Below are positions 9,602 through 37,454 of a DNA stretch of 64,000 nt, piece by piece; the stretch's first letter is position 1, and each line of letters starts with the position of its first letter. The stretch covers positions 124,001 through 188,000 of the forward strand of contig NZ_PCPZ01000001.1 of NCBI RefSeq assembly GCF_002979865.1. Direction: 5' to 3'. The notes beneath the pieces were generated by a model, which saw only the letters and a list, made by a program, of their open reading frames with translations, searched no databases and was not told the origin of the DNA. Position numbers and translations under genes: made by a program. This DNA comes from Arthrobacter sp. MYb214. GTDB taxonomy: Bacteria > Actinomycetota > Actinomycetes > Actinomycetales > Micrococcaceae.

Positions 9602-12088
9602 ATGATTAGAGAGAATCAAGCATGGATGAAAGTTGTGCCGAAGTTGAACGCTAATTACTATGAACTGCTGGAATCATACGCATGTCGTATCCGTCGAAAC
9701 ATGCCCCAAGCGGAAGAACACGCGCTTCTTACCAAATCAATGAAGTATCGCGATGTTTTGGCCACCATCGTAGTTGGACAAGGAATTACCTACGACGAAC
9801 TTTCTGAAAATCTTGATGACTTCACAAATGGTGAGATCGACTTTGCTGTTCTTGCGTCCTTGGGAAGGATCGTGGCCCTGCAGAATATCAATACCGAAGA
9901 TCGGGCAAACGGACGAAAAATCATTCATGCGGCGAATGAAAATTTACCTCGAACGAAACTTTTCCAGAAGTACAGGCAACTCGAATTCGAACTGATCTTC
10001 GAATCAGCTTCATATTCCGAAGCGGTGGCACATTTGAATGCAAACCCGGAACTGAAAGAGGTTCAAGACGGGTATCTAGAAGTGGATATGTATAACCCGT
10101 TCTTAGGTTTGGAAAACAGTGAGTATACGCACTGGCAACAAGGATTTAATAAGATATTCGAATCTTGTGGCAGAATTCCAGTCGCGTTATCTGGGGAAGC
10201 TAAGAGACCATTTGACCGTTTGACGGCAGCCAATGATCTGAATCGAATAACTGACGGCCCGCTTGTTTCAGTCATCATGACCAGTTACGACCCCGAGCCG
10301 GAAGCTTTTATAGCGGCAGCACGTTCCATTTTGAATCAGACCTGGAGAAATCTTGAGCTAATCATTATTGACGATGCAAGCCCGAACCGCGAAAGTGAGC
10401 TCTTAGAAAAACTAGCTGGAGAAGATGCCAGGGTTAAACTCGTGTTATTGACGGAGAATGGAGGAACGTACCGCGCGCGCAATGTTGGTTTGGAAGTCGC
10501 CACGGGAGAATTCGTAACGGGACAAGATTCTGACGATTGGTCTCATCCTGAACGAATAGAATCTCAAGTTAAATACATGCTCGAGGACCCAAAAGCTGCT
10601 GGTGTGATGACCTCGGCAGTTCGCACGGATGAAAACCTAAGTCGGATTATGCCAGGCCTTAGTCCAACACGAAAATGCGAAGTTAGTTTTATGACTCCAC
10701 TCCATCTAGCACGTGAGGTTGGCGGTTACCTAGATGCACGTAAAGCAGCTGATAGTGAATTTAGGCAACGCGTAGAATTTTATTCTCAAAGAAATGTTGG
10801 AGTAATCCACGATGCGCTCTATATCATTCGTCTAATGCCTAATTCGCTGTCTCGTGGTGATTTCTCTTCAGGTTGGTCGCATCAATCACGTCGTGCTTTC
10901 TGGAATGCAGCCCTGTATTGGCATTCGAATACTCCGTCACTAAGTCTGTCCGTGAAAGACGAACCGAAGGTTCCGCTACCGATCCCACATCGTTTCCAAA
11001 TCACCAAGCCCGCACCCAGCGAGCTGGATATCGTCTTTGCTGCAGACTGGCGTGTGTCACATGGATGGCAGCGAGCTGCTGTCGACGAAGTGAAATTCCT
11101 TGTTGCCAGAGGTCTGCATATCGGTATCATGCAGATGGAATCACCAAACTCAAACGCCCGTACTTCTACGAAGCCGAACTTACAGATACAACAACTGATC
11201 AATAATGGGACAATAACGCAGGTCACTTCCGACCAAGAAGTAAAAATTGCGAACCTGATCTTCCATGATCCGTCCATCATGCAATTCCCGACTTCGCAGG
11301 AATCCAATCTTCGGGTTGGAAAGATAATAATGGCTCCGTTTGATCTCCCCTCTGATAACAACGGTGAAATCATTCGATATTTATATGATGACTGCACTCG
11401 AAACACGCAGAATTATTTTTCCGCTAATGTAGAGTGGTCATTCCTAAATAGCATGTCGCAGGTTGTAGGTGAGGCTGAAGGCTCTGGAGTTTCGGTACTG
11501 CCAGGAGCATGGCCATTGGTCCTCCATCTGGAATCTTGGACTGGAAAGAATAACTTAGGTATTAACAGTCCTCAAAAAATACCGATTCTAGGACGTAGCT
11601 GCCAGAATAATTATTCGGGCTGGCCGATGAAAGAAACAATTCAACAATTGTGGCCAACAGACGATTCTGCTGAAGTCTGGATCTTAGGTGACGCTCGCGG
11701 AGCGCTCAGAAACCTCAATGACAAATATTATGCAGATAACTGGGTTTCATTCCGAGAAGGCGAGATTCGTCCGGTGGATTATATGAGGGCGATCGACTTC
11801 TTCGTTTACTTCCCGAGCGAAGATTCGGACGAAAATCTTTGTAGAGAAGCATTTGAAGCCGCTGCTACTGGGAAGATTGTCATTCTCCCTGAAAAATTCC
11901 GTGATGCGCATGGTGATACTGCACTTTATAGTACTCCGGAAGGAGTGGCCCAACTGCTTGAATATTACTGGCGAAGTCAAGAATCATATCAAGTGCAGGC
12001 CAGAAACGTTAGAGACACATTGACTCGAATGTTCGCAGACGGCGAAGTCTTAGAAGAACACTTCCGAAACCTTTTGACTTTGGCATAG
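9602..12088 (+). CDS. Dual-domain glycosyltransferase (GT2 plus GT-B-like domain)
   Basis: An 828-residue cytoplasmic protein. Residues ~1-215 are mostly helical. A GT2 (GT-A fold) domain starts near 217 with PLVSVIMTSYDP, continues with LELIIIDDASPNRE, and has its metal-binding acidic motif in GQDSDDWSHP (~308-314). From ~470 a second Rossmann-like domain begins (LDIVFAADWRVSHGW) and ends with an E-x7-E-like segment (ENLCREAFEAAATGKIVI), as in GT4 enzymes. It could add two sugars in succession. It is paralogous, with the same domain order, to the protein at 28035-30791 but lacks that protein's N-terminal membrane hairpin. The next gene, 13 bases on, encodes such a hairpin separately. An in-frame ATG at 9626 has a better purine-rich upstream sequence, so the start could be eight codons later. 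Confidence 0.8.
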   Translation: MIRENQAWMKVVPKLNANYYELLESYACRIRRNMPQAEEHALLTKSMKYRDVLATIVVGQGITYDELSENLDDFTNGEIDFAVLASLGRIVALQNINTEDRANGRKIIHAANENLPRTKLFQKYRQLEFELIFESASYSEAVAHLNANPELKEVQDGYLEVDMYNPFLGLENSEYTHWQQGFNKIFESCGRIPVALSGEAKRPFDRLTAANDLNRITDGPLVSVIMTSYDPEPEAFIAAARSILNQTWRNLELIIIDDASPNRESELLEKLAGEDARVKLVLLTENGGTYRARNVGLEVATGEFVTGQDSDDWSHPERIESQVKYMLEDPKAAGVMTSAVRTDENLSRIMPGLSPTRKCEVSFMTPLHLAREVGGYLDARKAADSEFRQRVEFYSQRNVGVIHDALYIIRLMPNSLSRGDFSSGWSHQSRRAFWNAALYWHSNTPSLSLSVKDEPKVPLPIPHRFQITKPAPSELDIVFAADWRVSHGWQRAAVDEVKFLVARGLHIGIMQMESPNSNARTSTKPNLQIQQLINNGTITQVTSDQEVKIANLIFHDPSIMQFPTSQESNLRVGKIIMAPFDLPSDNNGEIIRYLYDDCTRNTQNYFSANVEWSFLNSMSQVVGEAEGSGVSVLPGAWPLVLHLESWTGKNNLGINSPQKIPILGRSCQNNYSGWPMKETIQQLWPTDDSAEVWILGDARGALRNLNDKYYADNWVSFREGEIRPVDYMRAIDFFVYFPSEDSDENLCREAFEAAATGKIVILPEKFRDAHGDTALYSTPEGVAQLLEYYWRSQESYQVQARNVRDTLTRMFADGEVLEEHFRNLLTLA

Positions 12089-12101
12089 ATAAGGGATCAC
12101 A

Positions 12102-13877
12102 TTGATAAAAGTTTTTGCAAATAAAATCAAATTATTCTTAGTGTTAGCTGCAGCATTGACTACTGTTGGAATAGTGTTTGAACTAATCGGAATATCGTCG
12201 ATAAGTAGGATCATGATCCTCTTGGTTGCCCTAGTAGCTGCAACCATGGGTGGCTTGACATTTTATAAACTCATTCAGATCAGGAACGAAACTGATCGGT
12301 TGACAACTAAAATACTGAAAATTGATAACCGAACCGGAGAACTCTTGGACTTCTCCGGAAAAAGTCACCGCGAAATACTTCGACGCCTCGAAGGAGTTGA
12401 CCAAATTTCGAATCGTCAAGTTAAAGAGATAGAGAAGCAATCGCGAGCAACACGTGAAGAGTTACGTACGAATTTCAAGTCTCTTCATACTACCCAGACT
12501 GAGTATGATCGTGATGTGAAATTCGGGATTTCACAGCTGAAAGATTCTGCTAAAAATACCATTGATTACACAGTTCAATTGAATGACATTGAGCTACGCG
12601 TCCGCAAGTTAAGTAATCTGTATCAGGCGGACGCCAAAAATTTACGTGAGAAAAATTACGAAGTTTTGGAATTGATTCGCGCAACGAATGAAGTTGGCAT
12701 TCAGAATCACAACGTTATTAATCTCCTGGAACGCAGGATCATAAATAAGCTCCGTGTCAACCCTGAGCTAACTAATGTACGTGCACGAGTCGAACGAATG
12801 GAACGTCGTTTAATTGGATTGATGGAACGTCTACGTACTGAATCAGATGATTCAGTTAACTTGTTATCTGTTTCAATTCAGACAGAAATCGAGAAAATCA
12901 ATGGACTTCTGCTTTCAATACGCGACGAACAAGAAGTGTCGCTCTCGAAACAATCCACTCACTTAGAAAAATACGTGACCGCTGGAAATACATCCATTGG
13001 CGAGGCGCTAGCCACGCGTTCCGAGGATATTGAATCGCATCTCCAACAGCTCAAGGAAACTTTTAATGCTCGCATTGAGGAGCTCCTTGCTGAATTTGCG
13101 CGTCTCGGGGAACAAACTCAAAACGTTAACCTGAGTGAGGAAACGACCGCAAAACTTGCCGAAGAGTCGTCACGAAACAGCCTCCACAATCGACGACAAT
13201 TGCGCAGGCACATCACTGAGACTGTCCGTGACAGCACGAGACAAATGGAAGCACTTGTTAAGTTGGCACCACGACTGGCTGAAGTTAATCCCTTGGTTCC
13301 GCCGACAGGTGGGTATGCGTTAGATGCGCAGGCCCTATTGCACCTAATTGATGTGTTAGAACGTGTACAGCCAAAGTTGATCGTAGAGTTCGGCGGCGGT
13401 ACTTCAACAATATGGATGGCGTACATCTGTGAGAAGTTCGGTACGCGCATTATTTCGTTTGATCATCTCGAAGAGTACTTGTCACGAACACAGACTGAAG
13501 TCGATCGACATGGTTTTAGCGATATGGTCGAGCTTCGTTTGGCACCTTTGGAGGAAATTCAAGTTGAGGGCGAGAACTATTCATGGTATTCGCTCGCTGA
13601 ATTAGACGATCTCGAAGATGTAGACCTGCTATTTATAGACGGACCACCAGAATCTACTGGTACCAATGCACGGCGCCCAGCCATGCATGTTATGACGGCA
13701 AGACTTAATGACCATGCGGTCATCGTTCTTGACGACACCCATAGGGAGAGTGAGCAAGATACGGTTCAAATTTGGACATCATCATTCCCCAATTATCAGG
13801 TGGTGGATGCAAATATCAGCCGCCTGACGGTGTTAGAAAGTACCGGAGAGAAGAACCAGGAAAGTATTTTGGAATGA
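12102..13877 (+). CDS. Membrane-anchored coiled-coil protein with C-terminal methyltransferase domain
   Basis: A 591-residue protein starting at TTG 12102, with AAGGGA about 7 bases upstream. Residues ~11-31 and ~37-58 form a two-helix membrane hairpin. Residues ~60-400 are charged and almost wholly helical, with heptad-like spacing, predicting a long coiled coil. From ~425 a class I SAM-dependent methyltransferase-like domain begins: motif I LIVEFGGGTSTIW, the acidic strand IISFDHLEEY, then DLLFIDGPPES and VIVLDDTHRE. It is linked to the next gene by an ATGA overlap and follows a dual-domain glycosyltransferase. Family knowledge gives only methyl transfer. I infer a membrane-tethered modifier of the growing polymer, possibly a length-measuring cap. 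No exact family is recognised. Confidence 0.75.
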   Translation: MIKVFANKIKLFLVLAAALTTVGIVFELIGISSISRIMILLVALVAATMGGLTFYKLIQIRNETDRLTTKILKIDNRTGELLDFSGKSHREILRRLEGVDQISNRQVKEIEKQSRATREELRTNFKSLHTTQTEYDRDVKFGISQLKDSAKNTIDYTVQLNDIELRVRKLSNLYQADAKNLREKNYEVLELIRATNEVGIQNHNVINLLERRIINKLRVNPELTNVRARVERMERRLIGLMERLRTESDDSVNLLSVSIQTEIEKINGLLLSIRDEQEVSLSKQSTHLEKYVTAGNTSIGEALATRSEDIESHLQQLKETFNARIEELLAEFARLGEQTQNVNLSEETTAKLAEESSRNSLHNRRQLRRHITETVRDSTRQMEALVKLAPRLAEVNPLVPPTGGYALDAQALLHLIDVLERVQPKLIVEFGGGTSTIWMAYICEKFGTRIISFDHLEEYLSRTQTEVDRHGFSDMVELRLAPLEEIQVEGENYSWYSLAELDDLEDVDLLFIDGPPESTGTNARRPAMHVMTARLNDHAVIVLDDTHRESEQDTVQIWTSSFPNYQVVDANISRLTVLESTGEKNQESILE

Positions 13878-14839
13878 AATCAAATAACGCATTATCTGGC
13901 CAGATTTCAACTTTCGATGAAAAATTCTGGGTAAAGGACGATATATTCGTTAACACACGGAATGACCTTGCCGCTACGGATGCAATTCATCTCGTAGACT
14001 GCACGTATCTTGAATGGCAGGATATTCTTTCGACTGAAAAATCGCCATTTGATAATACCGACGGTGAGTTTGAACAACAGTTTCGGATAGTTCCCGACGG
14101 CATTCATGCAAAAAGATTGCATTTGGATGCCCTACTTGTTCGTCGCGATTCTAAGAAACTTCTCGTCGTGTTTCATGGCGCCTTAGATCGCGAGAAGTAC
14201 ATCCTGCCGCGATTTGAGTTCAAAACTAGTGTGAAACGATTTGATGGATCGGTGCTATTCATTTCGGATCCCTCTTTGCAAACTCATGATGAGTTGGGAC
14301 TAGCATGGTACGTCGGAGATGAAGTCGACAATGGTCATGAGATGATTACTACTCTTGTACGAGAATTTGCAAGACACCTCGGAACAGAAAAGATTGTCCT
14401 GACTGGAAGCAGCGGTGGAGGTTATGCGGCTTTATCGACCTCGTTTCATATTGAAGGATCGGTAGCTCTTCCTTTTTCCCCACAAACGAGTGTTGAAGGT
14501 TACTACCAGGGGCATCGGACTCGTCTATTGTCTTCCGCTTTCTCAACGTGGCCTGATTTGAAACAGGGATTATTGTCTAATGTAACTCGCTTTGACCTAG
14601 GTGCGCTTTACGGGTCAAATGCAGCACGAAATAAAGTCTGGTTCATCCAGAATACTGGAGATAAATTTCACATACTAAATCACTGCATACCATTTGCTAA
14701 ATCATTGGGCATTGACTTCTCTAAAGGCGATTACCGTAATGACAATATACGGTTTGATTTGATCCTCTACCGCGACGGCCATAAACCGCCATTGCCAAGG
14801 ACGATGAATGATTACATCTCAAAAGCCTTCGATCTTTAA
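13874..14839 (+). CDS. Alpha/beta-hydrolase-like protein, polysaccharide locus type
   Basis: The ATG at 13874 overlaps the preceding stop as ATGA and has AGGAAAG upstream, so I choose it over the open frame reaching back to 13772; 321 residues. The central region has LLVVFHGAL (a strand followed by a His-Gly loop) and the nucleophile elbow GSSGGGYAAL, the G-x-S-x-G pattern of serine hydrolases. A C-terminal RDGHKPP could supply the catalytic His. It shares the elbow, an NH-x-x-PF segment (NHCIPF here, NHYMPF there) and the late GH motif with the protein at 22539-23435, so the two are distant paralogues. The role is unknown; deacylation or acyl transfer on a surface polymer, in the manner of Asp2-like accessory proteins, is inference. 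Confidence 0.7.
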   Translation: MKSNNALSGQISTFDEKFWVKDDIFVNTRNDLAATDAIHLVDCTYLEWQDILSTEKSPFDNTDGEFEQQFRIVPDGIHAKRLHLDALLVRRDSKKLLVVFHGALDREKYILPRFEFKTSVKRFDGSVLFISDPSLQTHDELGLAWYVGDEVDNGHEMITTLVREFARHLGTEKIVLTGSSGGGYAALSTSFHIEGSVALPFSPQTSVEGYYQGHRTRLLSSAFSTWPDLKQGLLSNVTRFDLGALYGSNAARNKVWFIQNTGDKFHILNHCIPFAKSLGIDFSKGDYRNDNIRFDLILYRDGHKPPLPRTMNDYISKAFDL

Positions 14840-16257: not shown

Positions 16258-16731
16258 ATGAGCAACGCCCCCATCCACCCATCGGCCAGCACCATGCCGG
16301 AGAATGGGACCATGGATTCCACCCAGCCCCGCCCGGACCAGCCGCGAAGCCGTACCATCACCCCGGCCCGGAAACTCGCTCACCTGCAAGGCTACGAAAA
16401 CGCGATCTAAAGCGGGCAGGGTCGCGGCTACCTGCGCGCCAACGGACTATATTCTTCGCAGATCGTCGAGTGGCGCAGGCTCCGCGATGCGGGAATCCTC
16501 GACGGAAACAACCCCGCCAACAGCACCAAAAGTGGCGGGAAGCTGAGCAAGGAACAAGCCGAAATCGCCCGGTTGAAAAAGCAGCTCGCGGCCAGCGAGC
16601 AGCAGCTCGCCACCACGCAGACCGCCTTGGACATCATGGGAAAAGCACACGCGCTCTTGGAACAAAACTCAAAGAGCGCGGATTCCAAATCGCAGCACAA
16701 GACATCCCTGCCGATGCCTACCAGCAGCTGA
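16258..16731 (+). pseudogene. IS3 transposase orfA (HTH protein) with premature stop
   Basis: Reads from ATG 16258 through RKLAHLQGYENAI to a TAA at 16408-16410. It then continues in the same frame as SGQGRGYLRANGLYSSQIVE and a Leu/Lys/Gln-rich coiled coil to 16731. A single base change (for example GAA to TAA) would explain the interruption. The later part, EIARLKKQLAASEQQL, is the leucine-zipper region typical of IS3 OrfA. A GGGAAAA heptamer at 16638-16644, read as G GGA AAA in this frame, is a good candidate -1 frameshift site into orfB. Confidence 0.75.
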
Positions 16732-17729: not shown

Positions 17730-17770
17730 CACCCGTTGGTCTCACTTGACTTGAAAATTTCCGGTTTCAG

Positions 17771-17798
17771 TGTCCACGAAGTCACGAGATTTCACACC
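17771..17798 (+). repeat. 28-bp direct repeat, left copy (probable IS481-type right end)
   Basis: Identical to 18925-18952, starting TGTCCACGAAGTCACG and containing GAGATTTCACA. Its orientation at both sites is the same, so these are not the two ends of one normal IS. It abuts the right end of the IS3 element. Confidence 0.9.
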
Positions 17799-17799
17799 A

Positions 17800-26761: not shown

Positions 26762-28018
26762 ATGCAAAAACTTGTAGTCGTAGGCCAGGGATACGTTGGC
26801 CTTCCACTTTCCCAGGGTGCCACACACGCCGGACTTCAGGTCACGGGCCTCGAATTGAATAAGACTGTCGTTGAGAACCTCAATAATGGAATCTCACATG
26901 TTGACGATATCTCTAACGATGACCTTTCTGTTTTACTCGGCAAGGGCTACCGCGCAAGCAACGATCCATCTGTTATTGCAGATGCTGACGTCGTCGTCAT
27001 CTGTGTGCCTACTCCGCTTGGTGAAGCCGGTAGCCCAGATTTAGGCGCAGTTATCGGAGCAACGAAAACCATCCGTGACAACCTTGCAGGCGAGACTCTG
27101 GTAGTTCTCGAATCCACAACTTACCCAGGCACAACCGAAGAAATTTGCCTGCCAATCCTAACCGAGAACGGTGCAGTGCTTGATCAGGACCTGTTCTTGG
27201 CATTCTCGCCTGAACGCATTGATCCGGGCAACCAAACCTACGGTTTGAAGAACACCCCCAAGGTAGTCGGTGGAATGACTGTCGAGTCCGGTGACCGCGC
27301 GGTTGCATTCTACAGCCAGTTCATTGATTCTGTGGTCCGCGCCAAGGGTGCCAAGGAAGCTGAAACTGCAAAGCTTCTGGAAAACACTTATCGCCACATC
27401 AACATCGCCTTGGTTAACGAAATGTCCAAATTCTGCAACGAGATGGATATTGACCTCTGGGACGTCATCAATGCTGCTAAGACCAAGCCCTTCGGTTTCC
27501 AAGCCTTCTACCCAGGCCCAGGCGTCGGTGGACATTGCATCCCAATTGATCCAAACTACTTGAGCTACTCGGTTCGCAAGTCACTCGGGTATCCATTCCG
27601 TTTCGTTGAACTTGCTGAGGAAATCAATAACTCGATGCCACGCTACGTCGTAGATCGAGTGCAGAACGTTCTTAACGAGTCCGGTATGGCTTTGAAGAAT
27701 GCCAAAGTTCTTCTTTTGGGTGTCACTTACAAACAGGATATTGCTGACCAGCGTCACTCGCCGGCGCTGCCGGTCGCAGAAGTATTCCTGGAGCGCGGTG
27801 CGGATGTCTCTTTCCACGATCCAAAGATTGATGAGTGGTTCGTTGGCGGGCAGTCCTTCGCGCGCGTCGACTCGCTCGAAGAGGCCGTTGCGAATGTTGA
27901 CGTAGTTGTGCTGTTGCAGAACCATGCAAGCTACAATCCAGACGCCCTGGCAACATCCAGCAAGGCATTCTTCGACACTCGTGGTGTTTCTGCAGGCAAC
28001 GCTGCAGTACGCCTGTAA
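26762..28018 (+). CDS. UDP-glucose/UDP-GlcNAc 6-dehydrogenase family (WbpA/TviB-like)
   Basis: A 418-residue nucleotide-sugar dehydrogenase that oxidises C6 of a UDP-hexose to a uronate with two NAD+. It has an N-terminal Rossmann motif VVGQGYVGLPLSQGA, the active-site segment VVLESTTYPGTT, and the catalytic Cys in PGPGVGGHCIPIDPNYLSY. The HCIPIDPNY variant is typical of WbpA/TviB-like enzymes acting on UDP-GlcNAc or UDP-Glc, unlike the HCIAVDPWF of the second dehydrogenase at 35013. The C-terminal domain (LLLGVTYKQDIADQRHSPAL) is complete. AGGAAAT precedes the ATG. It is the first gene of a run of seven plus-strand polysaccharide genes. Confidence 0.88.
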   Translation: MQKLVVVGQGYVGLPLSQGATHAGLQVTGLELNKTVVENLNNGISHVDDISNDDLSVLLGKGYRASNDPSVIADADVVVICVPTPLGEAGSPDLGAVIGATKTIRDNLAGETLVVLESTTYPGTTEEICLPILTENGAVLDQDLFLAFSPERIDPGNQTYGLKNTPKVVGGMTVESGDRAVAFYSQFIDSVVRAKGAKEAETAKLLENTYRHINIALVNEMSKFCNEMDIDLWDVINAAKTKPFGFQAFYPGPGVGGHCIPIDPNYLSYSVRKSLGYPFRFVELAEEINNSMPRYVVDRVQNVLNESGMALKNAKVLLLGVTYKQDIADQRHSPALPVAEVFLERGADVSFHDPKIDEWFVGGQSFARVDSLEEAVANVDVVVLLQNHASYNPDALATSSKAFFDTRGVSAGNAAVRL

Positions 28019-28034
28019 GCCGAGAGATTTACGG

Positions 28035-30791
28035 ATGCTAAGAAAATTACACGGTTTTCAGCCCTGGCAGATTGCCATACTCGCAGCGAGTGCATTCGGT
28101 TTCATTCTGGCCGTAGTTGGAGGGTTGTTGAAGCTGAATGTACTAGTAGTTATCGGTATCGGTGCCGCGGTTCTCGGTACCTCTGGACTGCTCCTACTGT
28201 TCAGCCGTCAAACTTGGCGTCAGTTAAAGAAACTCGACGCAAAAGTCGGCGAGCTGTCCTACGGCGTTGCTTCCATTGATTTATCACCGGTTTCAGCTCA
28301 TACTGATGGATCTTCTTTTCCTCCGACTGCCGGACCATTGCCAGCAATCGGACTCGACAATGAATGGGCACGCCGAATGCCGCACATTCGGTCAGATATG
28401 GAGACATTCGCGCTTCGTTCCAAGAGCACTCGTATCCGCGACTCGATAGCACTTGCCGCGACCAAAGGGACGCTGAAGTATAAGCCGCTTCGTGAAATGC
28501 TCACGGTTACAGACATGGGAATGATCGATCGCAATCGATTGGAAGTCGTCCGTTCATGGGATAAGGACATGCTGCTGACCCTGGCGCGTTTGGCCGCTAA
28601 CCAACGTGCGTTTGAAAGCGATATGAACGATTCCGTGCGCCTCTTCAATTTGGTGGAACGCTACTTCGGTATCAAGGCTCTCGGTCGGAACGACCGACTA
28701 ATTTACGTTGAGGTGCTGACTGAGACTGGAGAACTAAAGAAGCAGCGCGAAGCGATCAAACGCTTTGGCATTCGCAACAAGTTTCCAGTTCAAGGTGAGC
28801 TTCTGCGCTTAAATTCAGTACACCATGTTGATAACGGCGTTACTGAACGATGGTTGGCTGAACTTAACTTGCTGTTCCGAAAGGAAGGTCTCGCAGAAGT
28901 TCACTTCGCCGGATCTGACTCCAACGCGGCGATCGACCGTTTACGAAGCGACACCAAGAAGATTACCGACGGACCGAAAGTTTCCGTACTTGTACCGTCA
29001 TTCCGTGGTGGAGTGCTCCTTAAGACTGCCTTAATTTCCTTATTAGAACAGACTTGGGACAATCTCGAAATTATCGTCATTGATGATTGCTCGGGCGAAG
29101 AATACGAACAGTATCTTGTCGAGGCAGAATCAATGAGCACCAAAATTAAGGTCTTGCGTCAGTCGGAGAACCTTGGTGCCTATTGCGCGAGAAACGCAGG
29201 ACTAGCAATTGCGCAGGGCGACTTCATCACTGTTCATGACGATGACGACTGGTCTCACCCTGACAAGATAGCTCTTCAGGTGACGAATTTGATCGAGAAT
29301 CCTGACCTACCGGGTAACATGTCGTTACATGCTCGTTCCACAGAAGATCTGAAGTTCCTGCGTATTAACAACAATCCACAGTTCGCCCAGCCAAACTTCT
29401 CTTCATTGATGGTCCGTCGATCTTTGTTCGACGAGATTGGTCCTTGGGATACGGTCAACCGCGGTGCGGATGCTGAATTCCGAGATCGTCTCGTACGGCG
29501 GTTTGGAACACCTATTCAGTCAGTAGGGCAGATGGCGCTTTCCTTCACCCGCACGCGTGAAGGTTCACTTACTGCAGGCGAAATGAGCCGAGGATTCGTT
29601 GACCCATCGCGTCTTCTTTACCTCGCAAGCTATACGAAGTGGCATGGCCAGTTCGCAGAGAGTCCTGAGAGTATCCATCGAGGGCAGAATCGTGAATATA
29701 TGATTCCCTCCACGATGGAAGCCGGCAAGCGCGGTGCTGATCTCGGAACATTCGATGTTGTCTATGTGACAGATTTCCGGTTCCCAGGCGGGACGACCAC
29801 TTTGACCCTTGCGGAAATGAAAGCAGTTGCACAAAGCGGTAAACGCGTCGGATTTATTCATTTGGAGTCTCCGCTAAATAAAGCATCAACGCCGATTAAT
29901 GATGGTCTCTTCACGCAGCAGAACAGTGGCAAAGTTGAGCAGCTCAGCTTAGGCGACGTTGCTCATGTCCATGTTTTGATAGTGCGTCACCCATCAGTGG
30001 TGACTTTCTTGGAGCGTGCCGATTCCAAGATTTCTGTCGACCATTCTCTCTTAATTGTGAATAACCCGCCGGTCAATAAGGGTGGCAGTGGCATGGTCTT
30101 CGATTTGGAAGTTTGCGTTGATAACATGGATCGCCTTTTTGGCACTGAAACCTACGTTATTGGTGAGTCCGATCTGACTCGCAAGCTTTCAGTTCCTTTG
30201 GCTCCAGCGTCTAGACTGTTGGAGAGCACCTGGCCAGGCGTGATAGCAAGCGGAAGTGTTCCGTCACCTGATTTTGAGAAGAAGCCTGTTCTCGGACGGC
30301 ACTCAAGGGATCATGTTTTGAAATGGCCTTCGACCCTAGAAAAGTTCCGTTCAGCATACGTATCGGATAGCTATGAGACAGAAATTCTCGGCGGCGCTAC
30401 AGAACTTCGTAAGAAGTTGGGTGAGGTAGCAACTGAAGGTATCACCGTTCATGAATTCGGCTCCATGGAAGTTGATGACTTCCTAAGCACAGTCGATTTC
30501 TGGGCGTACTTCCACGACGACAAGCTAACTGAGTCCTTCGGCATGTCTACTGCGGAAGCCATGGCGGCGGGAAAAGTGGTTATTCTTCCAAGGTACATGG
30601 AAACGACGTTCGGTGATGGCGCTGTATACGCTGACTCCCATGAGGTTCATAGCGTTATTATGCGATATTGGTCCGATCGTGATCTATATCTTGAGCAGTC
30701 GGAAAGGGCTAGGAAATACATCGCTGATCGCTACGGCATCGATGCGTTAATGAAGCGTCTCCAGTCATTTGATGATCAGGAAGTCGCTTAA
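28035..30791 (+). CDS. Membrane-anchored dual-domain glycosyltransferase (GT2 plus GT-B)
   Basis: 918 residues from the ATG at 28035; the open frame extends upstream into the previous gene but the ATG just before MLRKLHGFQPWQIAIL is the sensible start. Two adjacent membrane helices occupy ~14-36 and ~39-60. A helical region follows, then a GT2 domain from ~312 (VSVLVPSFRGGVLL, LEIIVIDDCSG) with the acidic motif HDDDDWSHP near 400. A GT4-like C-terminal domain runs from ~570 (FDVVYVTDFRFPGGTT), with ESFGMSTAEAMAAGKVVI as its E-x7-E segment. It probably adds two sugars at the membrane face. It is paralogous to 9602-12088 and, in its membrane hairpin, resembles the start of the coiled-coil methyltransferase at 12102. 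Confidence 0.82.
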   Translation: MLRKLHGFQPWQIAILAASAFGFILAVVGGLLKLNVLVVIGIGAAVLGTSGLLLLFSRQTWRQLKKLDAKVGELSYGVASIDLSPVSAHTDGSSFPPTAGPLPAIGLDNEWARRMPHIRSDMETFALRSKSTRIRDSIALAATKGTLKYKPLREMLTVTDMGMIDRNRLEVVRSWDKDMLLTLARLAANQRAFESDMNDSVRLFNLVERYFGIKALGRNDRLIYVEVLTETGELKKQREAIKRFGIRNKFPVQGELLRLNSVHHVDNGVTERWLAELNLLFRKEGLAEVHFAGSDSNAAIDRLRSDTKKITDGPKVSVLVPSFRGGVLLKTALISLLEQTWDNLEIIVIDDCSGEEYEQYLVEAESMSTKIKVLRQSENLGAYCARNAGLAIAQGDFITVHDDDDWSHPDKIALQVTNLIENPDLPGNMSLHARSTEDLKFLRINNNPQFAQPNFSSLMVRRSLFDEIGPWDTVNRGADAEFRDRLVRRFGTPIQSVGQMALSFTRTREGSLTAGEMSRGFVDPSRLLYLASYTKWHGQFAESPESIHRGQNREYMIPSTMEAGKRGADLGTFDVVYVTDFRFPGGTTTLTLAEMKAVAQSGKRVGFIHLESPLNKASTPINDGLFTQQNSGKVEQLSLGDVAHVHVLIVRHPSVVTFLERADSKISVDHSLLIVNNPPVNKGGSGMVFDLEVCVDNMDRLFGTETYVIGESDLTRKLSVPLAPASRLLESTWPGVIASGSVPSPDFEKKPVLGRHSRDHVLKWPSTLEKFRSAYVSDSYETEILGGATELRKKLGEVATEGITVHEFGSMEVDDFLSTVDFWAYFHDDKLTESFGMSTAEAMAAGKVVILPRYMETTFGDGAVYADSHEVHSVIMRYWSDRDLYLEQSERARKYIADRYGIDALMKRLQSFDDQEVA

Positions 30792-30823: not shown

Positions 30824-32029
30824 ATGAGTTCAAACTCATTACGGGTGATTGCGCGCAGTCTTCGAATCAAATTCGATAGGCTGCGCGCTATATCCACGTA
30901 TAAATACATGTTTAGTGGAAACGTTGTTGGCTTGACGTTTTCCAAAGGATCTGAAAAGCCACATGTGCTTTTCGTGACCAGTAACGGTGCTGGTATGGGG
31001 CATATAACGAGATGCCTAGCTATAGCCAGTAGCGGGAGGGCGGCATTTCAGTCGTCCTTCGTAACCCTCTCCACTTCCGCAGAAGTCATCGGGAAGCAGG
31101 GATTCGAGTATCTGCATTTCGCGAGTTCCGGTACTACTGGTCAACCTGCCCGTGTCTGGAACAATAATTTTTACCACTTCTTCAACCAATTATTGCGCAG
31201 GAACAAATTTGACGCCGTAGTCTTCGACGGAACCTGGATTTATCGAGGACTGCGCGACGTGCTGGATAATAATCCGGACGTAAAGTTAGTTTGGTTACGC
31301 CGTGGTCTTTGGAAGAAATCGGCTAGCGTGGAACAACTGCCAGAGATGGAAGCTTACTGCACGAAAATTCTAACTCCTTGGGATATTGGACAGCATCTAG
31401 ATCATGGCGCGCTGTCCCGGGTAAACACTCAAACCCCTGTTCGAGGAATCGTTCTATCGGAAGGAGCCTTACTCTCCCGCGAGGTAGCCCTTGACGAGCT
31501 GGAGCTGGATCCCTCAAAGCACTACGCACTCATTCAGCTTGGGGCCGGAAATATCAACGATATTTCCGAGACTCGCAAGAAAGTGATCGAAGCGATTCAG
31601 AAACTATCGAACGGTCTAGTTATTCCGGTCATTGCTTCGTCTCCATTAAGTGGGCAAACGCAGAGCGAATTCAGTTTAAAAACTATACGGAAATATCCGA
31701 TTTCTCCTTATTTGCTAGCCTTCGATTTTGTCGTATCTGCAGCTGGATATAACAGCATTCATGAATTAATTAGGTGGAGCATCCGATCACTGGTAATACC
31801 AAACTTGGATGCCAGCACGGATGACCAGAAAGCCCGTGCTTACGCTTTGCAAGACGGGGAAAATCACTTTACAGCGTTGACGGATGCGGAGATTGAATCG
31901 GGAATTTCTGCATTGCTCATTAAGAATGTAGAGGCGTCAGAGCCCCAATCCTCCGACACTGTGTATTCGAAATTTATTGATTCTGGTGACAACGCTGCAC
32001 AGGTTATTAGTGAGACCGTGGGATTGTGA
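30824..32029 (+). CDS. GT28/MurG-like glycosyltransferase
   Basis: A 401-residue GT-B enzyme. The N-terminal domain carries VTSNGAGMGHITRCLAIA, matching the glycine-rich G-x-G-H loop of MurG and the UDP-sugar transferases that bind a lipid-linked acceptor. The C-terminal domain has HYALIQLGAGN and the donor-binding SAAGYNSIHELIRWSIRSLV, where MurG has a Gly-Glu pair. It lies 32 bases after the dual-domain transferase and 42 before a GT4 gene, inside the operon. Donor and acceptor are unknown. A basic, amphipathic N-terminal tail (RSLRIKFDRLRA) could contact the membrane. Confidence 0.78.
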   Translation: MSSNSLRVIARSLRIKFDRLRAISTYKYMFSGNVVGLTFSKGSEKPHVLFVTSNGAGMGHITRCLAIASSGRAAFQSSFVTLSTSAEVIGKQGFEYLHFASSGTTGQPARVWNNNFYHFFNQLLRRNKFDAVVFDGTWIYRGLRDVLDNNPDVKLVWLRRGLWKKSASVEQLPEMEAYCTKILTPWDIGQHLDHGALSRVNTQTPVRGIVLSEGALLSREVALDELELDPSKHYALIQLGAGNINDISETRKKVIEAIQKLSNGLVIPVIASSPLSGQTQSEFSLKTIRKYPISPYLLAFDFVVSAAGYNSIHELIRWSIRSLVIPNLDASTDDQKARAYALQDGENHFTALTDAEIESGISALLIKNVEASEPQSSDTVYSKFIDSGDNAAQVISETVGL

Positions 32030-32071
32030 AAACAGATTATGTTCGGATGAATGGAATAGACGATAACTAGT

Positions 32072-33268
32072 ATGAGAATTCAGTTGCTGACTCATTCATT
32101 CGGGTCCGAGATTTCTCCGCCGCAGCGGCGTTGGTCAACGTTCATTGAATCTTTTCTTGAGAACGGGGCGGACGTCGACGTTGTTGCGCCCAATCGGAAA
32201 CAGGGAAATGCCTGGACACCATTCAGCGACGGAGTCCTAGCAAGAGTAAGCGGAAAGTTTGCTTTATACTCGTTCGCGTTCCGTTTTAAGGCACTGCGTT
32301 GGTATTCGAAAATAGTCGTACAGTTCTTAATGATCATATTTATGATCCCTTGCGCCTTACGTGCGCCAAAACCGGATTTATTGATAGTAACCGTACCTGC
32401 TTTACCCACACTGGTAGCTGGATACGTTGTTTCTAAATTGCGCAGTGTTCCGATGATCGTTGAAATGCGCGATGCATGGCCAGAGCTCTTGGAAGAGTCA
32501 GGCATAATCCGTTGGAAAGCTGTTGAGCGAATGGCCGTACGTAGCATTAGGCACATGCAGAATTCAGCATCAAAGGTTATTGCCGTGACTCCGGGTCACG
32601 CAGAAAAATTGTTTGCTCAGGGCTGCAAAGACATTGATGTCGTAACTAATGGTTATCGATTCAAGAAATTCAAGAAATCCAAAAGCCGGAGTTACTCCAA
32701 TAGTCGTCGATTACGTGTATTGTACCTGGGAAACCTAGGGGAGAGCCAAGGACTACAGAAGGTGCTGGATATAGCGGCGGTTTCAAAAAACTGGATGGAT
32801 CTTCGAATTGTTGGCAGTGGATCGGCGCTTCCTTTGTTGCGAAAGCGAGCGAACGAGTTGGGTCTGGGCGATATCTTTAACCCTCCGGTTAAGGGTGAAG
32901 AAGTTCTAGCTTGGTATGACTGGGCAGATAGTTGCATTGTTTCACTTCGGGAAGATTGGGAAAGCTTTGAGTACACTGTGCCGTCCAAACTCTTCGAGTT
33001 AGCAGGCTACGGATGTCACGTCACCGGCTTAGTAACTGGCGAAGCGCGAGGATTAATTGAAAAGTATGGCCTTGGTTCCGTTTATTCGGGCGATGTGCTG
33101 TCGATAGCGCAGGCCTGGTCGGCGGACGCTCCGAGAATTGCCGGTTGGCAACCAAACCCGAGAGTTCTTAGTGAATTCAAGAACCGCTTCGACTTAGAGC
33201 GATTGGGTCATGAATACTTTAATCTTTTAAGATTACACCGGCAGCAAATCGAAGGAAGAGAATCATGA
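32072..33268 (+). CDS. Glycosyltransferase family 4 (WbuB-like)
   Basis: A 398-residue GT-B enzyme. It opens MRIQLLTHSFGSEISPPQRR, typical of WbuB-type transferases of O-antigen and capsule loci. A hydrophobic helix in the N-terminal domain (FLMIIFMIPCALRAP, ~90-105) suggests membrane association with a lipid-linked acceptor. The C-terminal half has LRVLYLGNLGESQGL, and the donor-binding region EYTVPSKLFELAGYGC replaces the strict E-x7-E. Its stop overlaps the next start by four bases (ATGA, 33265-33268), implying translational coupling. Confidence 0.85.
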   Translation: MRIQLLTHSFGSEISPPQRRWSTFIESFLENGADVDVVAPNRKQGNAWTPFSDGVLARVSGKFALYSFAFRFKALRWYSKIVVQFLMIIFMIPCALRAPKPDLLIVTVPALPTLVAGYVVSKLRSVPMIVEMRDAWPELLEESGIIRWKAVERMAVRSIRHMQNSASKVIAVTPGHAEKLFAQGCKDIDVVTNGYRFKKFKKSKSRSYSNSRRLRVLYLGNLGESQGLQKVLDIAAVSKNWMDLRIVGSGSALPLLRKRANELGLGDIFNPPVKGEEVLAWYDWADSCIVSLREDWESFEYTVPSKLFELAGYGCHVTGLVTGEARGLIEKYGLGSVYSGDVLSIAQAWSADAPRIAGWQPNPRVLSEFKNRFDLERLGHEYFNLLRLHRQQIEGRES

Positions 33269-34944
33269 AATCCTCTCTTAGGATTCGCGGACTGCTAGCT
33301 TTATCCCGCATAGGATTAAATGGCGTACGAGAAGATCCTATTCATTTTGCTTTACTAGTTTCTCGTAGGTTCGCATCCAGCAAAATTTTCCTTCAAGTCA
33401 CTATGCGAATAGGGCGAATTCTAGAAAATAGAGCCCTGTCGAAAACTGGATTTGCAAACCGAATGCGTAGCTCCATACATCTACTGGAGGGAAAGCCGAA
33501 TGAGGCTTTCAAAGTGTTGGAGGGCTCTGAAGATGCAAAAACTCAGTGTGCCCGAGCCAGGATTCTTGCTTTCTTAGGTGAGTACGAGATGGCTTTTACT
33601 ACGGCGTTCAAGGCGGGAAGAAGAGGCCGGCGACTCGCCAGGCAGTATGGTGCGGAAAAAACAGTACTTTCAACGCCCGTACTGCCTAAAATGGCGTTGG
33701 CTAATGGTGGGCGAGTGAAGGGACGTAAAGTATTGCACCTGCTTAGTAATTCCTTGCCTTTCACCAACAGTGGATACACCCAGAGGAGTCATAGCGTACT
33801 AAAATCGATTCAGAACGCGGGATGGGATGTTTTCCCATTTTCGCGCGTAGGCTATCCCTGGATTGTAGGGGTTTTACCCAGTCTGGAAACCAACGAGATC
33901 GACGGAGTCACTTACCGCCGCCTTTTACCGAAGACTATTCCAGATACAGTAACTGAACGCCTAGACGTTCAGTCGCACCTGTTATCGGAACAAGTCAAAG
34001 AGATTGACCCCTCGGTCCTTCACACGACGACTGAGTTTTTAAACGGTATCTCTGTCAAAGAAGTCGCGGAGAGCTACGGTATTCCTTGGGTCTATGAGGT
34101 ACGGGGACAGCTTGCTGACACTTGGCTTTCTGGCTGCGACGATCGTAGCCGCGACTCTTTCCGGTACGTTAGTTTCAGAGCTCGCGAAGCTGAGATCGCC
34201 AAGTCAGCTGACGCTGTTATCACTCTTGGCAGCACCATGAAGAACGAATTAATTGCCTCCGGCGTGGACCCAGACCGTATACTCATCTGTCCTAACGCCG
34301 TGGGAGAAGAATTTATAGAGAATGTTCCTGAAAAGTCCGCTAGTCGCCAGGAGCTTGGCCTTGATGACGAGATGCAATTGATTGGCACTGTATCGAGCTT
34401 GGTTGGTTATGAGGGACTCGACTTGCTTGTTCGTGCGTTCGCTGGGCTTGTTCCGAACAATCCTAAACTGCGTTTAGTGATCGTAGGGGACGGCACCGAA
34501 CGGACTCGACTTATTGATCTAGCCGCTGAACTTGGCGTTAGAGACCGAACAGTATTCCCGGGCCGAGTTGAGAAGAACCGAGCACGCCTATATCATCGAG
34601 CGTTGGATGTTTTTGTTGTTCCTCGTCGTGATTTAGATGTGACACGTGCTGTAACCCCGCTCAAACCAGTTGAAGCGATGGCGTTTGAAGTGCCGGTGGT
34701 AGCTACGGATCTTCCAGCATTGCGAGAGATCGTCGATGATGGGGTAGATGGTTTGCTCTTCAATGCCGGTGACCAGATAGATCTTGCTGAAAAGATACGA
34801 ATTTTACTGGGTGACGAGGCAGTAAGAGAAACGATGGGTCGGGCCGGTCGTCGAAAAGTATTAGCGACCAGAACCTGGGCCGCCAATGCGGAACGTATAA
34901 CCGCTCTGTACAGTTCGTTGTGTGATGAGAGAATTAAGCAGTAG
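33265..34944 (+). CDS. Glycosyltransferase family 4 with N-terminal extension
   Basis: A 559-residue protein. Residues ~1-150 are a helical, basic extension with no recognised domain, containing TPR-like pairs around EGKPNEAFKVLEG and ARILAFLGEYEMAF. The GT-B core starts near 155 (GRKVLHLLSNSLPFTNSGYT), where SGYTQRSH matches the acceptor-side loop of GT4 enzymes. The donor domain contains LIGTVSSLVGYEGLD and AVTPLKPVEAMAFEVPVVA. It is coupled to the preceding GT4 gene by an ATGA overlap, so the two probably act in sequence. The extension may mediate complex formation; that is inference. Confidence 0.84.
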   Translation: MKSSLRIRGLLALSRIGLNGVREDPIHFALLVSRRFASSKIFLQVTMRIGRILENRALSKTGFANRMRSSIHLLEGKPNEAFKVLEGSEDAKTQCARARILAFLGEYEMAFTTAFKAGRRGRRLARQYGAEKTVLSTPVLPKMALANGGRVKGRKVLHLLSNSLPFTNSGYTQRSHSVLKSIQNAGWDVFPFSRVGYPWIVGVLPSLETNEIDGVTYRRLLPKTIPDTVTERLDVQSHLLSEQVKEIDPSVLHTTTEFLNGISVKEVAESYGIPWVYEVRGQLADTWLSGCDDRSRDSFRYVSFRAREAEIAKSADAVITLGSTMKNELIASGVDPDRILICPNAVGEEFIENVPEKSASRQELGLDDEMQLIGTVSSLVGYEGLDLLVRAFAGLVPNNPKLRLVIVGDGTERTRLIDLAAELGVRDRTVFPGRVEKNRARLYHRALDVFVVPRRDLDVTRAVTPLKPVEAMAFEVPVVATDLPALREIVDDGVDGLLFNAGDQIDLAEKIRILLGDEAVRETMGRAGRRKVLATRTWAANAERITALYSSLCDERIKQ

Positions 34945-35012: not shown

Positions 35013-36251
35013 ATGTCGGAAATTGATGTCTGTGTCGTGGGCATGGGTTATATAGGTTTGCCCACTTCAGTTGTATTGGCCAAAGCCGGCTGGCGAGTAC
35101 ATGGAGTAGACATTAATGAGAAAGCCGTCGAATTATTAAGTAACGGCGTCGCGACGTTCGAAGAACCGGGCATATCGGCGGCTTTGAAAAGTAGCGTCCT
35201 CAGCGGGAACCTCACTGTAGGTTCGGTTCCGAAGGAATCCAAGGTATACATCATTGCGGTGCCTACGCCCATCGATGCAAATTTTGAACCAGATACTTCC
35301 TACATTCGGTCGGCCGTTGAATCAGTAGCTTTGTTGGCGAAAGCGGACGACTTATTCATTTTGGAGAGTACTTCGCCTGTAGGGACGACGGAAATGATTC
35401 GCGATATCTTGCATGATCTGAGGCCCGACCTCACCAATGCGTTGATGTACTTTGCCCACTGTCCTGAACGAGTCATACCCGGTCGCATGATGAAAGAAAT
35501 CATTAGCAATGATCGCGTCGTTGGGGGAATCGATGCAAATTCCGCAGAAAAGGCAGCGAACCTGTACCGTTCGTTCTGCGAAGGAGAAATACATCTTACA
35601 GATGCACGAACAGCTGAACTTACCAAGCTAACGGAAAATTCGTTCCGCGATGTCAATATTGCATTTGCTAACGAGCTTTCAATCGTGGCAGATCATCTGG
35701 GCGTTAACGTTTGGGAAGTCATTGAGCTGGCCAATAAGCATCCTCGTGTTCAGATTCTTCAGCCTGGCCCGGGCGTAGGTGGGCATTGTATTGCTGTGGA
35801 TCCTTGGTTCCTCGTTGCTTCAGCACCAATGAAGACATCTTTAATCCGTTCTGCACGCAGAGTCAATGATTCCAAGCCTAGGTTCGTAGTGGATAAGATC
35901 GCGACGTACCTACGTGAGACTAATCGCGAGAGCGTGGCGCTCTTGGGACTGGCTTTCAAAGCAAATGTAGATGACCTTCGCGAGTCACCTGCTGTAAACA
36001 TCGCCGTAGAATTGGCGGAACATTTTCCAAATGTAAGGCTTAGCATTGTCGAACCGTTCGTCGATGAGCTACCACGAGCGCTTCAAAACTTCGATAATGT
36101 ACACCTTGTTGATCTTCAGGTTGCCTTTGATAACGAACAATTGATTGTATTGTTAGTCGATCACGACATTTTTAAATTGATTCCGAAGAGTACTCTGGAA
36201 GCCAAAGACCTGGTGGATACACGAGGTATGTGGAAAGAATTGGATATCTAG
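35013..36251 (+). CDS. wecC: UDP-N-acetyl-D-mannosamine dehydrogenase
   Basis: Oxidises UDP-ManNAc to UDP-ManNAcA with NAD+. 412 residues. It has the N-terminal dinucleotide motif CVVGMGYIGLPTSVVLA, FILESTSPVGTTEMI, and the catalytic Cys in PGPGVGGHCIAVDPWFLV, the WecC-type signature. The C-terminal part carries ALLGLAFKANVDDLRESPA. It sits three bases before the epimerase gene that makes its substrate, which supports the specificity. The other UDP-sugar dehydrogenase of the locus (26762) has a different active-site sequence, so two distinct uronates are expected. Start ATG follows a short purine tract. Confidence 0.9.
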   Translation: MSEIDVCVVGMGYIGLPTSVVLAKAGWRVHGVDINEKAVELLSNGVATFEEPGISAALKSSVLSGNLTVGSVPKESKVYIIAVPTPIDANFEPDTSYIRSAVESVALLAKADDLFILESTSPVGTTEMIRDILHDLRPDLTNALMYFAHCPERVIPGRMMKEIISNDRVVGGIDANSAEKAANLYRSFCEGEIHLTDARTAELTKLTENSFRDVNIAFANELSIVADHLGVNVWEVIELANKHPRVQILQPGPGVGGHCIAVDPWFLVASAPMKTSLIRSARRVNDSKPRFVVDKIATYLRETNRESVALLGLAFKANVDDLRESPAVNIAVELAEHFPNVRLSIVEPFVDELPRALQNFDNVHLVDLQVAFDNEQLIVLLVDHDIFKLIPKSTLEAKDLVDTRGMWKELDI

Positions 36252-36254
36252 TCC

Positions 36255-37454
36255 GTGAAAGCAAAAAAACTGCTGGTAATTTTCGGAACGCGTCCGGAAG
36301 CAATTAAGGTCGCACCTATAATTCGAGCAGCCAAGTGCTCCCCCCAGTTGGAATGCGTGGTTGCGGTTACCGGTCAACATCGAGAGCTGTTAGATCAGGT
36401 GAACACGCTTTTTGGAGTGGTTCCTGATTTTGATTTGGACGTATTCACTACGGCTCAGTCTCTGAATCGCCTGGTTGCACGAATTATAGATGGTTTGGAT
36501 GGTGTCTTTGACGCATGTGAACCGGACGCCGTGTTGGTGCAAGGTGATACAACGAGTGCTGTTGCTGGTGCCATTGCGGCTTTCTACCGAGGGATTCCAG
36601 TCGTTCATGCGGAAGCGGGGCTGCGGAGCTATAATTTGCTTTCGCCTTTCCCGGAAGAAGCTAACCGCAAAGTTGCGAGCCAACTCGCCACGCTTCATTT
36701 AGCGCCAACTATGTTTAACAAGCGAAACCTGTTGAACGAAGGAATCAGCGAAAACGCCATCGTAGTTACAGGCAACACAGTGATTGATGCCCTGCTCGAA
36801 ACTCTCTCAGACGAGATCAGTTTCTCCGACAGGCGTCTTAAGGATCTGGAATCTTCGGGGCGACGCATTGTCACCGTGACGACTCACCGTCGTGAGAACC
36901 ATGGCGAACGAATGGCATCTATCGCGAATGCAATATCCGTAATCGCTAAGTCAGCTCCCGATACGGATTTCGTATTGCCATTGCACTGGAATCCTGCTGT
37001 ACGTGAACGCATTATCCCCGCAACTGCAGGGCTTCCCAACGTTATAGTTACTGATCCATTGAATTATGCTGAGTTCACCAAGCTACTTAGCCTCTCGTCT
37101 GTTGTCCTTACCGACTCGGGTGGGGTTCAGGAGGAAGCTCCGAGTTTAGGCAAACCCGTCCTTGTAATGCGTTCGAATACGGAGCGTCCTGAAGGTATTG
37201 TTGCGGGCTCTGTAAAATTGGTAGGAACTGACACTGAGGACATAGTCCGTGAGATGCTTATACTCCTAGAAGACCAAGCCGTTTTTGATTCAATGGCAAC
37301 CGCAGTGAATCCGTATGGGGACGGCAATGCTTCCTTTAGAAGCATTGAAGCCATTAAGGAGCTGCTCGGTGTCGGGCAACGCGCGGAGGAATTTAATTCT
37401 TGGAATCCTAGCGAAGAACAATTAGTGCGTGCTGCTCGCATGATTCACAGGTAG
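36255..37454 (+). CDS. wecB: UDP-N-acetylglucosamine 2-epimerase (non-hydrolysing)
   Basis: Interconverts UDP-GlcNAc and UDP-ManNAc. 399 residues from a GTG start three bases after wecC. Diagnostic segments are IFGTRPEAIKVAPII at the N-terminus, VQGDTTSAVAGAIAAF, HAEAGLRSYN, the DNA/UDP-contact region TTHRRENHGERM, and LTDSGGVQEEAPSLGKPVLVMR. It completes the UDP-ManNAcA branch with WecC. It is the last gene of the polysaccharide operon and converges on the two-component regulator genes. Confidence 0.93.
   Translation: MKAKKLLVIFGTRPEAIKVAPIIRAAKCSPQLECVVAVTGQHRELLDQVNTLFGVVPDFDLDVFTTAQSLNRLVARIIDGLDGVFDACEPDAVLVQGDTTSAVAGAIAAFYRGIPVVHAEAGLRSYNLLSPFPEEANRKVASQLATLHLAPTMFNKRNLLNEGISENAIVVTGNTVIDALLETLSDEISFSDRRLKDLESSGRRIVTVTTHRRENHGERMASIANAISVIAKSAPDTDFVLPLHWNPAVRERIIPATAGLPNVIVTDPLNYAEFTKLLSLSSVVLTDSGGVQEEAPSLGKPVLVMRSNTERPEGIVAGSVKLVGTDTEDIVREMLILLEDQAVFDSMATAVNPYGDGNASFRSIEAIKELLGVGQRAEEFNSWNPSEEQLVRAARMIHR

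Follow-up and report, generated by a model that had tools for sequence, protein, structure and literature searches.

A gene of Arthrobacter sp. MYb214 (12102..13877, plus strand) encodes a membrane-anchored, coiled-coil O-methyltransferase-like protein of 591 amino acids. Positions are those of the window, i.e. the whole stretch of 64,000 nucleotides that was analysed. We show here that this protein combines a membrane hairpin, a stalk with coiled-coil-like periodicity and a methyltransferase domain in one chain, that the domain is conserved in a large family in which stalk length is kept within a clade and differs between clades, and that glycosyltransferase genes recurrently accompany this family. 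The protein could act as a terminator and ruler similar to WbdD, the membrane-anchored methyltransferase capping the chain end and the stalk setting polymer length, and we regard the chances of this as evenly balanced. As a hypothesis, the ruler reading is plausible and is strengthened by the behaviour of stalk length and by the gene company. To our knowledge, little is understood of how the length of intracellularly made Gram-positive wall glycopolymers is set.

Anatomy of the window protein

The reading frame begins with TTG and has no internal stop. Hydropathy of the protein is maximal at residues 11-29 and 28-46, and AF2 places helices at residues 2-28, 33-147, 158-197, 203-219, 221-292 and 298-392. 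The hydropathy peaks and the first two helices together confirm the two-helix membrane hairpin (12102..12272, plus strand; approximately residues 2-57) proposed in an initial annotation of this DNA. Because AF2 gives one helix from residue 33 to 147, the second membrane helix is predicted to continue into the stalk. The N terminus is rich in lysine, and lysine and arginine residues follow the second helix, suggesting that both ends of the hairpin are cytoplasmic. Two proteins with a domain closely related to that of the window protein (L027 and L086) come without a predicted membrane anchor, which suggests either that anchor and stalk were lost or that the start was misplaced.

The stalk comprises the 332 residues 61-392 (12282..13277, plus strand), of which 33% are D, E, K or R, with 2 prolines and 10 glycines. 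Its strongest hydrophobic period lies between 3.30 and 3.70 in 41 of the 42 segments scanned along it and at 3.98 in the remaining one. The mean power of this periodicity is 0.845 compared to 0.452 (sd 0.078) in shuffled sequences, and none of 300 shuffles was as high. In the AF2 model (41 aligned sequences, single chain; mean pLDDT 77.7, pTM 0.51) the helix is broken at residues 148-157, 198-202, 220 and 293-297, and confidence in the stalk is moderate, with ten-residue means of 38-91 that fall below 50 at 138-161. Thus, the charged helix of about 340 residues described initially is borne out in its charge content and coiled-coil periodicity, while the wording "nearly uninterrupted" was slightly too strong. 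Sequence and model agree on the order of the parts: the membrane end, the coil as judged by periodicity, and the methyltransferase at the far end.

The class I SAM methyltransferase domain occupies residues 396-584 (13287..13853, plus strand). Residues 428-546 match Methyltransf_24 (PF13578) with an E-value of 2.3e-11 and 44.9 bits (Pfam cut-off 26.3), and AF2 returns an alpha/beta methyltransferase with ten-residue means of 94-98 over residues 411-580. Family match and confident fold thus establish the C-terminal methyltransferase-like domain; the predicted structure is firm here, in contrast to the discontinuous stalk helix of middling confidence. Of 45 aligned domains, 44 or 45 retain each of E429, G433, L483, W495, Y496, D513-G-P, R524, P526, D544-D545, R548, E551 and W558. 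Residues that are invariant or present in at least 90% of rows are E429, G431, G433, S435, W495, Y496, D513-G-P, R524, D544-D545, R548, E551 and W558, and in the full-length alignment all invariant and nearly invariant columns fall inside the methyltransferase domain. D513 and D544-D545 stand at positions that we take to be those of the metal-binding acids in metal-dependent O-methyltransferases. Profile matches in the PDB are to O-methyltransferase family 3 and to catechol O-methyltransferases, and most of them cover the first half of the domain. A plain WbdD homologue is unsupported, as these are the best matches; no protein named WbdD occurred among the 50 PDB sequences recovered at E<=0.01 in this profile search, judged by name. 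No kinase family is found among the Pfam and NCBIfam matches of the protein and no glycosyltransferase family among its Pfam matches, the latter unlike the one-chain WsaE type. A co-polymerase of the Wzz type was rejected, because no Wzz is among the three Pfam families matched at E<=1 and the hairpin precedes the stalk; in the Wzz layout, membrane segments flank the stalk.

Glycosyltransferase partner and gene company

The methyltransferase gene starts 13 bases past the 3' end of a gene for a putative dual glycosyltransferase of 828 amino acids (9602..12088, plus strand), its presumed polymerase partner. Pfam recognizes GT2 at residues 223-346 and has no match in the C-terminal half. The protein aligns along its length with a dual glycosyltransferase paralogue in the window (28029..30791, plus strand; 27% over 803 positions) that has GT2 and GT4 matches, the GT4 match lying below the Pfam cut-off. 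The upstream dual-domain glycosyltransferase is therefore upheld, GT2 by Pfam and the GT4-like half through the paralogue. By eye, the paralogue has an N-terminal hydrophobic hairpin of its own. The idea that partner glycosyltransferases are generally hairpin-anchored was dropped, as a pair of TM segments within the first 350 residues is seen in only 2 of 120 long enzymes of glycosyltransferase clusters 1 and 4.

Downstream, a gene for 321 amino acids (13874..14839, plus strand) is coupled by the ATGA overlap noted initially. A GSSGGGYA motif, noticed by eye, is the sole basis of its former label as hydrolase-like, so that hydrolase or acyltransferase is an assignment by motif; the protein has no Pfam match at E<=1 and no NCBIfam match at E<=0.01. 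The G-x-S-G-G-G motif recurs in the product of 22539-23435, neither protein being above cut-off in Pfam or NCBIfam, and proteins with this motif (cluster 13) are present in 9 of 115 relatives' loci. An asparagine-synthase-like protein, so called from a GGFDSR motif seen by eye, is encoded at 20086-21924 on the minus strand (612 amino acids; no Pfam or NCBIfam match).

Further along the plus strand lie a nucleotide-sugar dehydrogenase gene (26762..28018; Pfam/NCBIfam), three further glycosyltransferase-like genes (30824..34944; the first just under the Pfam cut-off), and genes for a UDP-ManNAc dehydrogenase of the WecC type (35013..36251; NF008286 over cut-off) and the UDP-GlcNAc 2-epimerase WecB (36255..37454; TIGR00236 over cut-off). 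WecB and WecC together point to a chain that would contain ManNAcA and be teichuronic-acid-like. Genes for an ABC-2 permease, an ABC ATPase, LCP and TagF-like proteins follow approximately 6 kb after the window ends, at a distance of some 56 kb from the methyltransferase gene. Wzt_C (PF14524) has no match in the genome, nor in the ABC ATPase near the window, and hence an export gate that recognizes the cap in the manner of O9a is absent in that form. Among relatives, Wzt_C occurs in one of nine Pfam-scanned ABC ATPases (L136, Luteimonas), and an ABC ATPase cluster lies near 10 of 38 long-stalk loci. Within approximately 8 kb on each side of these 38 loci, no Wzx or Wzy family was found in the 16 of 29 transporter-like neighbours scanned with Pfam. 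At about 17-30 kb on the upstream side, a separate cluster (locus L172, read by eye) has sugar-transferase, flippase-, Wzz- and Wzy-like genes, and a Wzx/Wzy route may thus be conceivable. The GC content is 0.44 at 12001-14000 compared to 0.54-0.63 in the two flanks of the window; between 8001 and 24000 it is 0.43-0.51 apart from transposase-like ORFs at 16470-18858 (by eye, GC 0.595). With its low GC content and transposase-like ORFs, the locus resembles an exchangeable island for a surface polymer.

Relatives were present in 16 of 295 genomes sampled from the family (the best three or four candidates per genome being scored), in 18 of 297 from the order and in 10 of 296 from the phylum, figures that all include the genome of the window. 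Within the genus 2 of 18 genomes were positive, the other one carrying a shorter and distant relative. A first contig scan with the whole 591-residue protein as query gave no match; a scan of named genomes gave 308 pattern matches, of which 130 were relatives and 80 were kept. Hosts include Nesterenkonia, Brevibacterium, Cellulomonas, Actinoplanes, Jiangella and Aeromicrobium, and also Luteimonas, Lysobacter and Halomonas, and three sampled genomes (G110, G261, G467) have two matches each. Anchor, stalk and methyltransferase follow one another in the same order throughout a large family whose stalks differ in length and whose genes repeatedly adjoin those of glycosyltransferases, which lends the initial interpretation indirect support.

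Removal of 10 duplicates from 115 neighbourhoods left 105 loci, the phylum-level loci L076-L084 being outside these counts. Glycosyltransferase cluster 1, to which the window partner belongs, is represented in 66 of the 105 loci; in 60 of them a member lies no more than three genes away, and in 47 it is the neighbouring gene. This is a single-linkage cluster of proteins of 186-1372 amino acids, some of them single-domain. Cluster 1 or 4 is found in 76 of the 105 loci. With both clusters counted, a member is the next gene upstream in 32 loci (median gap 40.5 bases) and the next gene downstream in 13, each time on the same strand, and 11 adjacent members are on the opposite strand. Pfam assigns GT2 plus a GT4-type domain to the partners in L064 and L067 and GT2 only to that in L024. 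In both Luteimonas L124 and Lysobacter L127, the methyltransferase gene stands between two glycosyltransferase genes, and a dehydrogenase gene comes after the second of these. Across the 295 family genomes, in searches for the two genes that scored the best three or four candidates per genome and used different E-value limits, the glycosyltransferase occurs in 13 of 16 with the methyltransferase and in 20 of 279 without it (Fisher p 1.7e-11, a value that is too optimistic because shared descent was left uncorrected); conversely, 20 of the 33 genomes carrying the glycosyltransferase lack the methyltransferase. A GlnD-like protein (cluster 6) is encoded upstream in 15 of 115 loci (L099, L102, L103 and others), with HD and ACT domains in L122, the one member scanned. 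The methyltransferase gene of Actinoplanes and kin therefore adjoins housekeeping genes rather than a variable island. Mainly in the same group, 12 of 115 loci (including L096, L107 and L112) encode proteins of 139-256 amino acids with N termini that look coiled-coil-like by eye (cluster 12); the one member scanned has no Pfam match.

Stalk length across relatives and its possible meaning

Stalk length was taken from the last TM segment, called by hydropathy threshold only, to the methyltransferase. Of 115 proteins, 86 have a predicted TM segment, and their stalks measure 26-471 residues, N termini in GC-rich loci being over-long where ORFs use the first possible start. The remaining 29 have no predicted TM segment and several stalks measure 26-60 residues, so that the enzyme can do without a long stalk. 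For the window protein the value is 366 residues when one TM segment is called; 345 was set by hand for the pairwise and tree comparisons. The tree holds 109 methyltransferase domains, six of the 115 rows being omitted as partial or ill-defined ORFs (L063, L071, L073, L083, L131, L159). Within it, a clade of 22 proteins from Actinoplanes and kin (SH-aLRT 99) has stalks of 84-87 residues in 21 members and of 70 in the other (L147). These 21 were first chosen by stalk length and afterwards checked on the tree; their stalks are as little as 0.37 identical (median 0.49; methyltransferase median 0.65) and their C-terminal tails span 6-33 residues. The nearest kin of the window protein (SH-aLRT 90) have stalks of 345 (window), 318 and 212 residues, along with two members without a predicted anchor, and in the sister groups stalks are 103-132 residues long. 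Pairs at 0.6-0.7 methyltransferase identity, mainly of the Actinoplanes clade, agree within 3 residues in 92% of 177 cases. At 0.5-0.6 identity most pairs differ modestly (median 26 residues), a difference above 50 being seen in 21% of 167 pairs; among the listed pairs at 50-56% identity the difference reaches 205. Coiled-coil periodicity has z>2 in 46 of 69 stalks and z<=2 in 23, values that stand without a control set of other stalked proteins. Length is thus kept despite sequence drift and changed between clades, as a spacer or ruler predicts. A tether under weaker rules would fit this pattern too, and close relatives tend to keep their length anyway.

In the mechanism that we infer, the hairpin would anchor a cytoplasm-facing sugar O-methyltransferase in the membrane, where it would act on the chain built by the dual glycosyltransferase encoded just upstream. 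The coiled-coil stalk, probably oligomeric, would place the enzyme at a distance of up to approximately 50 nm if fully extended, given some 340 residues of 1.5 Å each. A growing lipid-linked chain would reach the methyltransferase only once long enough, methylation of its outer end would stop growth, and the finished chain would be exported, perhaps by the ABC transporter some 6 kb beyond the window.

The main rival to the ruler is a tethered, decorating methyltransferase that modifies internal or side-chain sugars, hairpin and stalk keeping it beside the glycosyltransferase complex with no measuring. Short-stalk and anchorless members fit such an enzyme, as does an acyltransferase-3-like cluster (cluster 2; identity by eye and from the description of AMIS_70460) in 39 of 115 loci, which decoration would predict. 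A wall teichoic acid of Streptomyces antibioticus is described with some side-chain glucose residues that are 3-O-methylated (PMC13274773). However, a mere tether needs neither the 84-87 residues held in 21 of 22 proteins despite drift nor the large jumps between clades, and we consider decoration a real possibility that falls well short of an even chance. It is improbable that the substrate is something other than a polymer (a lipid carrier, a protein or a small molecule) and that the position of the gene reflects chance island content: the low GC content of 0.44 and the presence in 2 of 18 genus genomes would suit this, but the gene is found with glycosyltransferases again and again, in different families and phyla. 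Most unlikely is a scaffold whose stalk recruits and spaces glycosyltransferases with methylation being minor, since stalk diversity and large adjacent glycosyltransferases agree with it but the conserved columns all lie in the methyltransferase domain.

Returning to the ruler, we tentatively propose, at somewhat less than an even chance, that these proteins form a second class of glycan rulers, one that is widespread and arose independently, with an N-terminal membrane hairpin, a stalk of lineage-specific length, a Methyltransf_24 terminator and a GT2+GT4 polymerase partner. In Actinobacteria this class would determine how long teichuronic-acid-like wall polymers become, and in some Gram-negatives how long surface glycans become; genomes with two copies of different stalk length would make two polymers, each with its own set length. 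Two of the three genomes with two matches carry copies of clearly different stalk at separate loci (L024, 318 residues, and L029, 113; L032, 113, and L035, 221). As one conserved enzyme comes with a natural series of stalks of 26-471 residues, the family would allow tests of a ruler with natural polymers and stalk swaps. If the proposal is true, it suggests a function for proteins now recognized only as SAM-dependent methyltransferases.

Relation to known terminators and rulers

Rulers of this kind are an established idea in E. coli O9 and in K. pneumoniae O12 (PMC11231755). In the WbdD systems of E. coli and Klebsiella, the terminator is described at the end of a coiled coil far from the membrane and the polymerase near the membrane; the WbdD of O8 is a methyltransferase without kinase, and the partner WbdA is a multi-domain glycosyltransferase (PMC11231755, PMC3482155). 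Like WbdD (E. coli O8/O9/O9a, K. pneumoniae O3/O5), the window protein has a methyltransferase at one end of the predicted coil and the membrane at the other, and it shares a multi-domain glycosyltransferase partner, here judged by gene adjacency and co-occurrence. Several features differ. The order is inverted, with the anchor N-terminal and the enzyme C-terminal, so that "reversed topology" was correct as a description of domain order. The anchor is a hydrophobic hairpin, while that of WbdD is an amphipathic helix. There is no kinase, unlike in the O9a type and as in the O8 type, and Wzt_C is missing from this genome, unlike in the WbdD systems. In K. pneumoniae, ORF6 (O7) and WbbB (O12) likewise have a coiled coil between terminator and polymerase, but are described as one chain of terminator, coil and glycosyltransferases (PMC11231755), whereas here two proteins are involved.

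A Gram-positive case is WsaE of Geobacillus stearothermophilus, whose methyltransferase is assigned to the 2-O-methyl rhamnose cap that ends the S-layer glycan; methylation in vitro is reported there to be independent of chain length (PMC2943079). As in the window, a methyltransferase is tied to glycosyltransferases, two such domains in WsaE. WsaE is, however, a soluble single chain and not actinobacterial (PMC2943079), and here the genes are separate. Among actinobacteria, the utr cluster of Streptomyces griseus and S. antibioticus is described as making a teichuronic acid, a uronic-acid polymer whose non-reducing end is modified; its end group is a 4-O-acetyl, unlike the cap considered here, and the term "methyltransferase" is absent from the main text of that paper (PMC13274773).

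In open-licence literature, judged by titles and the beginnings of abstracts, no description of an actinobacterial methyl terminator or ruler was found. The initial statement that no actinobacterial counterpart is described needs qualification, both by the Gram-positive methyl-capping WsaE and by AMIS_70470 from the gsf cluster of Actinoplanes missouriensis. AMIS_70470 is described with two TM helices and a SAM methyltransferase domain at residues 160-332, and its neighbours are genes for a GT2, a UDP-ManNAc-type dehydrogenase and an acyltransferase (PMC13390465). The term "coiled-coil" is absent from the main text of this paper, the authors of which propose GtrA-dependent glycosylation and no ruler. 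Deletion of the whole gsf cluster leads to small sporangia (PMC13390465). Compared by description, AMIS_70470 looks like a relative of the window protein.
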